NCBI RefSeq assembly: GCF_000526155.1
Contig: NZ_JAFN01000001.1
Location: 4,074,001-4,138,000, forward strand
DNA: 64,000 nt
From: Deferrisoma camini S3R1
GTDB lineage: Bacteria > Desulfobacterota > Deferrisomatia > Deferrisomatales > Deferrisomataceae
Reading direction: 5' to 3'
The notes below the pieces were generated by a model, which saw only the letters and a program-made list of their open reading frames with translations, made no database searches and was not told where the DNA came from. A program made the position numbers and the translations under genes. This document shows positions 13,320 through 61,004 of this stretch, piece by piece. Positions within the stretch are counted from its first letter, which is position 1. The number at the start of each line of letters is the position of its first letter.

Positions 13320-13361
13320 GGCGGCCAAGCCGCTGGTGTCCATGCTGTGCATCCCCGAGGC

Positions 13362-13529
13362 GGTGGGGCTGGGGGCCCCTCCTTCGCTGAACGGCCTCGC
13401 AGGGGCCGCCTCGGCGCGGTCCGCTGCGGCGCGTGAGAGCACGCGCCGCGGCCGCTCCCCTGGCGCCGGGCGGCCCTGGCTGCTCGGCCGTCGCGCTTCG
13501 TCGGAGCCCCCAGCCCCACCGCCGCAATC
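13362..13529 (+). repeat. Palindromic repeat element, copy A
   Basis: A 168-bp element nearly identical, in the opposite orientation, to 46897-47063. The outer ends are inverted repeats (GGTGGGGCTGGGGGC at the left, its complement at the right), the arms remain partly complementary throughout, and the centre is a perfect 10-bp stem GCGGCGCGTG around AGAG (about 13426-13449). No open reading frame or transposase is evident. It looks like a MITE or large REP-type element, or a structured RNA. Confidence 0.8.
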
Positions 13530-13614
13530 GATATGCTTTCTTGCGGACTAGGCGGCTGGGCGGCGAGGCGAGGCCCGCCGAACGGCCAGCCTGTCGTCTG
13601 CCGCCTGATCCGGG

Positions 13615-20730: not shown

Positions 20731-20828
20731 CGGACACCTCCTGCCCGCATTATAAGCCGGCGGCAAAACAGGTGTGTTTCCTCTGAGGGCGGGGCAAGGG
20801 ACCTGCCTCCGGCCGGGCGCAAGTGCTC

Positions 20829-20877
20829 CAAGTCTCTAGTTTCTAGTCTCTAGTCTCTAGTTTCTGGTCTCCAGTCT
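20829..20877. repeat. Degenerate heptamer repeat, CTAGTYT family
   Basis: Seven tandem 7-nt units: CAAGTCT, CTAGTTT, CTAGTCT, CTAGTCT, CTAGTTT, CTGGTCT, CCAGTCT. They lie between hsp20 upstream DNA and the 3' end of dctM. The same unit recurs at 39664, 44184 and 53010. Confidence 0.85.
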
Positions 20878-20883
20878 CGCCGG

Positions 20884-39498: not shown

Positions 39499-39765
39499 GC
39501 TAGGACGCTAGGAGGCTGGGACGCTGGAAGGCTTGAAAACCTCCCGGATTCCAACGCGTTTTAGGCAGTGCCACGCCACTTCGCCTCTTCTTCATGATCT
39601 CGGGGGGCTAGAGGCCTGGTGGAGCGCCCCCTCCCGACTCACGGGCCGAGGTTCCAAAGATTTTTCTAGTTTCTAGTCTCCAGTTTCTAGTCTCTGGACG
39701 GCCCCGCAGGGGCCTGAGGGGGCTTCCCAGCCTCCCAGCTTCCCAGCCTTCTAGCCTCCCAGCCT
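39499..39765. repeat. Composite intergenic repeat block
   Basis: Three series with shared hairpins: octamers at 39499-39538 (GCTAGGAC, GCTAGGAG, GCTGGGAC, GCTGGAAG, GCTTGAAA); CTAGTYT-type heptamers at 39664-39698 followed by GGCCCCGCAGGGGCC; octamers at 39723-39762 (CTTCCCAG, CCTCCCAG, CTTCCCAG, CCTTCTAG, CCTCCCAG) that run up to the stop codon of the acyl-CoA dehydrogenase. The first two series recur in the same order and spacing at 44083-44218. Confidence 0.8.
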
Positions 39766-41642: not shown

Positions 41643-41740
41643 TGGCGGAGGTGGATGGGAATCGAACCCACCGGCGACGCTGTTCACGCCGCCCACCGGA
41701 TTTGAAGTCCGGGAGAGCCACCAGTGCCCTGGCCACCTCC
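41643..41740 (-). tRNA. selC: tRNA-Sec (selenocysteine, anticodon TCA)
   Basis: 98 nt with an 8-bp acceptor stem (GGAGGTGG with CCACCTCC), anticodon loop CTTCAAA carrying TCA, a long variable arm, T loop TTCGATT and encoded CCA. These are hallmarks of selenocysteine tRNA, which reads UGA at SECIS sites with SelB. It implies that the organism makes selenoproteins; none is evident in this window, and selA, selB and selD are not here. Confidence 0.94.
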
Positions 41741-44059: not shown

Positions 44060-44240
44060 TCGGGCCTTCGGCCCGCCTGAAGGCTGGAAAGCTGGGAGGC
44101 TTGAAGACCTCCCGGGTTTCAGCATGCTCCGTAAACCGACACGCCTCTTCGCCTTCACCTCACGGTCCGAAGTCCCCGGTTTTTTCCAGTTTCCAGTCTC
44201 TAGTTTCGAGTCTCTAGACGGCCCCCCAGGGGCCTGAGGT
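44060..44240. repeat. Composite repeat block, second copy
   Basis: GGGCCTTCGGCCC hairpin, octamers 44083-44106 (GCTGGAAA, GCTGGGAG, GCTTGAAG), about 75 bp of related spacer, CTAGTYT-type heptamers at 44184-44218 (TTCCAGT, TTCCAGT, CTCTAGT, TTCGAGT, CTCTAGA), then GGCCCCCCAGGGGCC. The order matches 39499-39720. Confidence 0.75.
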
Positions 44241-46024: not shown

Positions 46025-46870
46025 ATGAGCCCGTTGGACCTGTTCTGGATCTTCTTCATGGCCTCGGCCCTCCAACCGCTCTTTCGCCAGCGCATGGTGG
46101 AAGCGGCCCGGAAGCGGCTGATCGCCCGGATCGAGAAGGAGCGGGGATCCCGAGTGATCCTGATGGTGCACCGCCAGGAGACCATGAGCGTGCTGGGGTT
46201 CCCGGTGTTCCGGTACATCGACATCCACGACTCGGAGGAGGTGATCCGGGCGATCCAGATGACCGACTCCGACGTGCCCATCGACATCGTGCTCCACACC
46301 CCGGGTGGGCTGGTGCTGGCCTCGTACCAGATCGCCCGGGCCATCGCCCGCCATCCGGCCAAGACCACGGTGTTCGTTCCCCACTACGCCATGAGCGGCG
46401 GAACCCTGATCGCCCTGGCGGCCGACGAGATCGTGATGGGCGAGCACGCCGTGCTGGGTCCGGTGGATCCCCAGCTCGGCCAGCAGCCGGCCGCGAGCAT
46501 CCTGAAGGTGCTGGAGCAAAAGCCGGCCGAGAAGATCGACGACCAGACCCTGATCCTGGCCGACGTGGCCCAGAAGGCGATCCGGCAGGTGCGCGACAGC
46601 GTGCGGGGGCTCCTCGAGGGCAAGTACCCCCAGGACAAGGTGGACGAGCTGGCCGAGATCCTGTCCACCGGTACCTGGACCCACGACCACCCCATCACCT
46701 GCGACGAGGCCCGGGACCTGGGGCTGAACGTCACGACCGAGATGCCCAACCCCATCTACGAGCTCATGGGGCTTTTTCCCCAGCCGGTGCGGCGGGTGCC
46801 GTCGGTGGAGTACCTGCCGGTGCCCCGGCACCGCGAGGGCCGGAACGGCGGGGACAAGGCCCAGGGCTAG
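46025..46870 (+). CDS. Membrane-associated ClpP-like serine protease (SDH protease family)
   Basis: A 281-residue protein of the serine dehydrogenase proteinase/SppA-like superfamily. A short N-terminal hydrophobic segment (PLDLFWIFFMASALQPLF) may anchor it. The ClpP fold shows VPIDIVLHTPGGLVLASYQ (oxyanion and strand motif) and VPHYAMSGGTLIALAADEI, whose serine is the likely nucleophile. The long region after residue 150 includes IDDQTLILADVAQKAIRQV and DHPITCDEARDLGLNV. Substrate is unknown. ATG 46025 follows AAGGAG; the open frame continues far upstream across the toxin-antitoxin genes and is not used. Confidence 0.82.
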   Translation: MSPLDLFWIFFMASALQPLFRQRMVEAARKRLIARIEKERGSRVILMVHRQETMSVLGFPVFRYIDIHDSEEVIRAIQMTDSDVPIDIVLHTPGGLVLASYQIARAIARHPAKTTVFVPHYAMSGGTLIALAADEIVMGEHAVLGPVDPQLGQQPAASILKVLEQKPAEKIDDQTLILADVAQKAIRQVRDSVRGLLEGKYPQDKVDELAEILSTGTWTHDHPITCDEARDLGLNVTTEMPNPIYELMGLFPQPVRRVPSVEYLPVPRHREGRNGGDKAQG

Positions 46871-46896
46871 TGTTCCGTTTCGCAAAAACGTACGCG

Positions 46897-47063
46897 GATT
46901 GCGGCGGTTGGGCTGGGGGCTCCGACGAAGCGCGACGGCCGAGCAGCCGGGCCGCCCGGCGCCAGGGGAGCGGCCGCGGCGCGTGCCCTCACGCGCCGCA
47001 GCGGACCGCGCCGAGGCGGCCCCTGCGAGGCCGTTCAGCGAAGGAGGGGCCCCCAGCCCAACC
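46897..47063 (-). repeat. Palindromic repeat element, copy B
   Basis: 167 bp, reverse complement of 13362-13529 with only four differences. One difference swaps a terminal G-C pair for T-A in both arms (a compensatory change), one lies in the AGAG/AGGG loop, and one is a single-base deletion. It lies between the Clp-like protease gene and hrpB. Confidence 0.85.
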
Positions 47064-47113
47064 CCTTGGGAAAAGAACGAAACGTCGGAAATGTGACGCT
47101 GGTCCGTGGGCCG

Positions 47114-52948: not shown

Positions 52949-53044
52949 CTTCGGTCTACGGTCGTCGGTCTTCGGTCTGGGGCCTTCGGCCCGCGTGAGG
53001 GCTGGGAGGCTAGTCTCTAGTTTCTAGTTTCTAGTCTCTAGCCC
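52949..53044. repeat. Two heptamer series joined by an octamer and hairpin
   Basis: Heptamers 52949-52990 (CTTCGGT, CTACGGT, CGTCGGT, CTTCGGT, CTGGGGC, CTTCGGC), then GCTGGGAG, then CTAGTYT heptamers 53010-53044 (CTAGTCT, CTAGTTT, CTAGTTT, CTAGTCT, CTAGCCC) leading into CCCGCAGGGG. This shows two heptamer families in one block. Confidence 0.8.
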
Positions 53045-54206: not shown

Positions 54207-54248
54207 CTTCGGTCGTTGGTCGCCGGTCGTCGGTCTGGGGCCTTTGGC
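54207..54248. repeat. Heptamer repeat, CGGTCNT family
   Basis: Units CTTCGGT, CGTTGGT, CGCCGGT, CGTCGGT, CTGGGGC, CTTTGGC, starting right after the upstream stop. The order and wording closely match 52949-52990. Confidence 0.8.
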
Positions 54249-60964: not shown

Positions 60965-61004
60965 GCGGCTGGGCAGCTAGGCGGCTGGGCAGTTGGGCGG
61001 ATAG
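60965..61004. repeat. Octamer repeat, GCTGGNAG family
   Basis: Units GCGGCTGG, GCAGCTAG, GCGGCTGG, GCAGTTGG, GCGGATAG, preceded by the mini-hairpin GGGCCTTCGGCCC. It fills the gap between the CoA ligase and the sensor kinase. Confidence 0.8.

Follow-up and report, generated by a model that had tools for sequence, protein, structure and literature searches.

The window, which is the whole 64,000-nucleotide stretch of the Deferrisoma camini S3R1 genome analysed here, contains two copies of a fold-back element, the second of them adjoining a ClpP-like protease gene (Table 1), and a selenocysteine tRNA gene at 41643-41740. The initial annotation had described 13362-13529 (plus strand, copy A) and 46897-47063 (minus strand, copy B) as near-identical inverted copies, and our alignment shows exactly the four differences that it claimed: the fourth base of the left arm (G in copy A, T in copy B), a loop base (A/G), a T missing from one copy, and the base paired with the fourth left-arm base (C in copy A, A in copy B). 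The first and last of these form the paired change from G-C to T-A that had been reported, with 13365/13517 of copy A corresponding in copy B to 47060/46909 (T-A when read in element orientation). The perfect 10-bp central stem, GCGGCGCGTG/CACGCGCCGC at 13426-13435 and 13440-13449 around an AGAG loop, is likewise present, and no match to this apex was found in shuffles of the window; with the roughly 60 genomic copies described below, this excludes chance. The arms as a whole, however, are no plain palindrome: a covariance model scores the core at about 157 bits on one strand and about 54 on the other, so the asymmetry of the core is conserved. As a single strand, the core folds far better than dinucleotide shuffles (z of -7.7 as DNA; -8.2 and -8.6 as RNA). 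The 168-bp coordinates describe this core well but not the full element, since the mobile unit extends beyond them on both sides to terminal repeats of its own; in copy A, it carries an 8-bp deletion close to the right end.

Table 1. Features of the two element copies in the window.
Feature	Position	Strand	Description
Complete mobile element, copy A	13337..13547	+	MITE, 211 bp, TGTCATG-like left-end subtype; from flank alignment of all copies
Left flank target site, copy A	13333..13336	+	CTGG (CTAG with one change)
Right flank target site, copy A	13548..13551	+	CTAG
Inner hairpin module, copy A	13377..13503	+	Also present in elements whose ends differ; R2 (covariance model), 118.6 bits
Apical 10-bp stem and AGAG loop, copy A	13426..13449	+	From sequence and folding
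Compensatory pair, left member	13365	+	G in copy A, T in copy B
Compensatory pair, right member	13517	+	C in copy A, A in copy B
Complete mobile element, copy B	46871..47098	-	228 bp; flank alignment; filled in G001, empty in G002 contig 74
Target copy beside copy B	46867..46870	+	CTAG, whose TAG serves as stop codon for the ClpP-like protease gene (46025-46870)
Other target copy beside copy B	47099..47102	+	CTGG, one change
Inner hairpin module, copy B	46923..47048	-	R2, 109.9 bits

Pattern, BLAST and covariance searches placed the element at about 60 loci of the genome, with 49 complete cores at distinct sites (pattern matches alone: 50 left arms and 56 right arms). Aligning the flanks of these copies defined a family, here called f1, of 211-229 bp with ends TGT...ACA and flanks that are usually CTAG. 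The left end is conserved as CTAG-TGTAGCGTTTCCGAAAT... or CTAG-TGTCATGGTTCGCAAGT..., the right end as ...TTTTTGCGAAACGGAACA-CTAG, and the terminal inverted repeats, TGTAGCGTTTCCG... / ...CGAAACGGAACA, are imperfect and kept across copies. None of the 49 complete f1 copies overlaps any gene predicted by a codon-usage gene finder, and all are intergenic; the element is thus short, multi-copy and without coding capacity. Its core has a GC content of about 80%. In two copies (L034 and L023) the core lies in reverse orientation between the ends. The flanks of four f1 copies (L003, L025, L030 and L033) hold members of a separate repeat family that is about 185 bp long and includes GCATTATTCATGAGCGTTCGTCGCGAAACCG; one of its copies (L058) has an IS630-type element inserted in it.

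Movement of the element is documented by two empty sites in sister species, which prove insertion. The first is the site of copy B, filled in G001 and absent in G002. At the second, that of copy L038, G001 (locus L097) reads ...GAAAG-CTAG-AAAGC..., while G000 reads CTAG-TGT...ACA-CTAG; with one CTAG in the empty site and two in the filled one, the target duplication is 4 bp. Across the genome, identical flanking tetramers were found at 23 of 50 copies, compared with 16.6 in shuffles (p 0.0015), and agreement extends to sites other than CTAG (CTAC/CTAC twice, GTAG/GTAG once). In about half of the copies the two flanks are no longer the same, which counts against the reading proposed below. At least a dozen insertions are common to G000 and G001, so many of them predate the split between these genomes.

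At copy B, the CTAG provides the stop codon of the protease gene, which in the species with the empty site is two codons longer and ends in TGA. As the duplication restores the stop codon, insertions at stop codons should be harmless. Several f1 copies start or finish at a TAG. CTAG is otherwise scarce in the window, with 33 occurrences against 74 expected. It recurs every 7 bases in intergenic tracts of CTAGTCT / CTAGTTT units (20826-20878, 39663-39695, 44188-44217 and 53010-53041), and since many MITE copies lie in or beside such tracts, these may be landing sites. Other intergenic low-complexity arrays, built of TCCCAGCC, CTTCGGT and GCGGCTGGGCAGCTAG, occupy 39725-39765, 52949-52989, 54209-54235 and 60965-61000 of the window and recur next to genes in many of the loci examined.

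A covariance model of the core, applied to three genomes of the genus, revealed that the inner hairpin of f1, about 126 bp long, recurs in other elements with different ends. Family f2 has diverged ends and the outer stem GGTGAATC.../...GATTCACC. Family f3 measures 220-223 bp, has ends TACCAATTTGCGATC.../...GCGACTTGGTA (TACCAA...TTGGTA) and is flanked by an identical TNA (TGA, TCA or TTA) in about 15 of 20 copies; many f3 copies start or finish exactly at a TGA stop codon inside the TNA target (for example L029:683-902, L225-L231 and L233). Two single-copy types, L239 and L234, have yet other outer stems. The hairpin module is carried by at least three MITE lineages of the genus, whose ends differ and whose targets are of at least two types, CTAG and TNA. 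Elements with f3-like ends around quite different centres also exist, which makes ends and centre separable. MITE-like elements of 227-283 bp at L138, L058, L062, L041 and L051 have ends like TACCAAGTTGCGTTC...GAACGCAACTTGGTA, TNA flanks and unrelated centres, and some of them hold a palindrome around GGCACTCAGCC. Among 395 genomes of the phylum, searched with strict filters by which weak relatives could be missed, the module model R2 matched three, all in this genus; the related records are metagenome assemblies. The element had no match in plasmid, phage or viral-contig collections.

The pairing of this hairpin is preserved while its sequence varies. In 54 sequences of the superfamily, standard pairs fill 96.5% of the pair cells, as against 36-45% when the partner is slid by 1-3 columns, and double changes affect 27 of the 56 pairs. 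Double-change cells number 298, compared with 87 after shuffling and at most 91 in slid structures, and the inner module alone, with the outer stems set aside, has double changes at 10 of 36 pairs (0-3 in slid controls). These values, together with the copy number given above, agree with the initial annotation's expectation of covarying stems in many copies. The independent events are few, since the double changes mostly distinguish one family from another; several, however, fall within a single family, as in f2 copies L153, L154, L155 and L185. The presence of the same paired hairpin in elements with different ends shows that folding, and not just sequence, has been kept.

Substitution rates at orthologous sites point the same way for the paired positions. 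In f1, 20 of 1792 paired positions changed, compared with 21 of 752 unpaired ones (p 0.005), and paired positions are slower than unpaired in both f1 and f3 at sites shared by G000 and G001 (f1 and f3 pooled, p 0.0006). Changes that break pairing in one arm, which had been proposed as evidence against a maintained hairpin, do occur in place, yet paired positions accumulate changes more slowly than unpaired ones. At the same shared sites, the f1 core changed by 1.5% and neighbouring intergenic DNA by 2.9% (p 0.002); the f3 core changed by 5.6% and its flanks by 2.3%. With the f3 core not slower than its flanks, constraint in place is not uniform.

We read the element as a non-autonomous MITE with a CTAG target that is presumably mobilised in trans and carries a pair-conserved hairpin module common to at least three MITE lineages, a reading to which we assign a probability of about 0.82. 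The MITE assignment, one of two types originally suggested, is supported by the terminal repeats, the CTAG duplication and the empty sites. For four transposase families the absence of a transposase from the window also stood: genome-wide searches for DDE_3, DDE_Tnp_1, DDE_5 and rve gave no match inside it. No transposase with matching ends was found among the IS630, IS701-like, DDE_Tnp_1 and IS21 elements of the genome, the four families that were searched genome-wide. Its IS630 elements have a TA target and other ends than the MITE, and its IS701-like elements have CTAG or TTAG flanks and ends TTCTRCTTTGTCAGATT. The parent IS of a MITE is often lost, and the lack of one with shared ends weakens the assignment to an IS family, not that to MITEs.

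In the mechanism that we propose, a MITE of 211-229 bp would insert at CTAG and duplicate these 4 bp, its movement in trans requiring a transposase that recognises the TGT...ACA ends, an enzyme that may since have been lost. Between those ends would lie a long imperfect hairpin, the module. Since pairing in the module was kept while its sequence changed, folding probably matters to the success of the elements. The fold would most likely act either at the DNA level, where a fold-back hairpin could form while the element transposes or replicates, or in RNA, where a neighbouring gene's transcript would carry a stem-loop at its 3' end. As for how the module came to be shared, we tentatively suggest that it may be a passenger that evolves apart from the ends and was taken up, within one genus, by MITEs that belong to unrelated transposition systems (CTAG-type and TNA-type), its pairing being retained as the fold helps the carrier element or the host.

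That selection keeps the hairpin, as DNA or as RNA, had been suggested from the two window copies; the maintenance of pairing is borne out by covariation and by the slower paired positions, and the choice between DNA and RNA receives mild pointers both ways. One account, which we consider rather doubtful, makes the module a structured RNA of 3' untranslated regions that alters the stability or the ends of the upstream transcript, with selection acting on fold and orientation. ERIC and NEMIS elements change the stability or ends of upstream transcripts in this manner. According to Delihas (PMC2229807), the effect of ERIC on upstream mRNA depends crucially on its orientation. The fold is very stable, and f1 copies between co-directional genes are split 28 to 8 by orientation (p 0.001), with f2 at 8 to 1 (p 0.04), f3 at 11 to 6, and sister-genome f1 sites, some of them orthologues, at 13 to 4. 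This bias relative to genes argues mildly for selection at the RNA level. Part of it may, however, reflect the replication strand, since 28 of 40 copies lie with the leading strand (p 0.017; origin and terminus placed from sampled GC skew only), and gene-orientation and leading-strand effects are inseparable at these numbers. One-sided changes, moreover, gave G-U no more often than A-C (49 against 43 cells, leaving out two fixed U-G pairs; 22 against 29 columns), which shows no sign of wobble selection and argues mildly against the RNA level. Rfam yielded no match at the gathering score in the window save tRNAs, and the permissive mode gave only chance-level matches at the element; a search for promoter and terminator patterns at copy A found none. 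The module thus shows the covarying base pairs of a structured RNA, but neither a match to a curated family nor a wobble preference. A role as intrinsic terminator was rejected: copy A has no terminator-like site, and the T run lies about 20-25 bases past the f1 stem and is absent in f2.

Pairing could also persist without selection, if template switching (quasi-palindrome correction) and gene conversion between copies kept the arms alike. Linked changes occur as blocks (TCCCCTGG versus ACCGCTCG) that f1 copies with different ends and one f2 copy have in common; one orthologous pair differs by this whole block, and the ACCGC variant complements the opposite arm. The blocks shared across families, together with the two inverted cores, show that arms and copies do recombine. 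As the source of the pairing we nevertheless regard this process as unlikely. Mismatches and internal loops persist across families uncorrected, and in f1 orthologues the 20 changes at paired positions are all single, although correction should yield doubles about as often as reversals. The 13365/13517 pair itself has a one-sided intermediate in L050/L091, with T on the left arm and C still on the right, so it probably changed stepwise.

It is improbable that the 168-bp core is itself the mobile unit and repeatedly entered older repeats, even though this would explain why most f1 cores are about 95-99% identical while the ends are split into at least two diverged subtypes, and would accommodate the module in f2 and f3. 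The f1 ends always occur together with the core (all 42 right-end matches genome-wide are at known copies), although a remnant of little beyond two f1 ends adjoins one copy, in L116. Several copies lack only the apex (L040, L045, L246-L251 and L253, and, in f3, forms in L097 and L197); they resemble products of deletion between short direct repeats (GGCTCGG, GCT, CTCGGC), not empty sites. The REP type, the other original suggestion, with a REP or REPIN moved by a RAYT (Y1 transposase), fits the palindromic, intergenic, many-copy character and the compensatory stem changes common in REPINs (PMC3116915), but REPs measure 20-40 bp (PMC3733652); the length of 211-229 bp, the terminal inverted repeats and the target duplication of 4 bp make this reading very improbable for the present element.

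In the usual description of bacterial MITEs, two IS ends enclose filler that can be dispensed with. In the present family nothing is better conserved than this centre, which truly covaries and occurs in elements with different ends and targets. It thus becomes testable whether the internal fold of a mobile element is under selection, as DNA or RNA, and by what route it is transferred from one transposon family to another. Compensatory changes are already known in REPINs (PMC3116915), so that covariation alone is not new; what is unusual is that different element families have the module in common.

Among known systems, the IS481 family has TGT ends and the target NCTAGN. The present element resembles it in its TGT ends and CTAG-centred target, but its duplication is 4 bp, not 6, and an rve search of the genome found no IS481-type gene with the MITE's ends. 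This genome also contains IS701-type elements (DDE_5), which have CTAG or TTAG flanks and thus the same kind of 4-bp target, and an IS701 element with a 4-bp duplication has been described (PMC6352166); their ends TTCTRCTTTGTCAGATT, however, are unlike the TGTAGCGTTTCCGAAAT or TGTCATGGTTCGCAAGT of the MITE. REPINs and REP doublets are likewise intergenic fold-back elements with compensatory stem changes (PMC3116915), but they consist of two short REPs and are attributed to RAYTs, whereas the present element has TGT...ACA ends and duplicates CTAG. The likeness to Correia/NEMIS, RUP and ERIC elements covers more features: they are short, gene-less and intergenic, with terminal inverted repeats and target duplication, and a transcript would fold into one long stem-loop; for ERIC, orientation relative to genes matters as well (PMC2229807). 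The present element differs from these in its 4-bp CTAG target, where theirs is TA, in a core of about 80% GC, where they are AT-rich, and in a hairpin module with extensive covariation that is common to elements of differing ends and target type.
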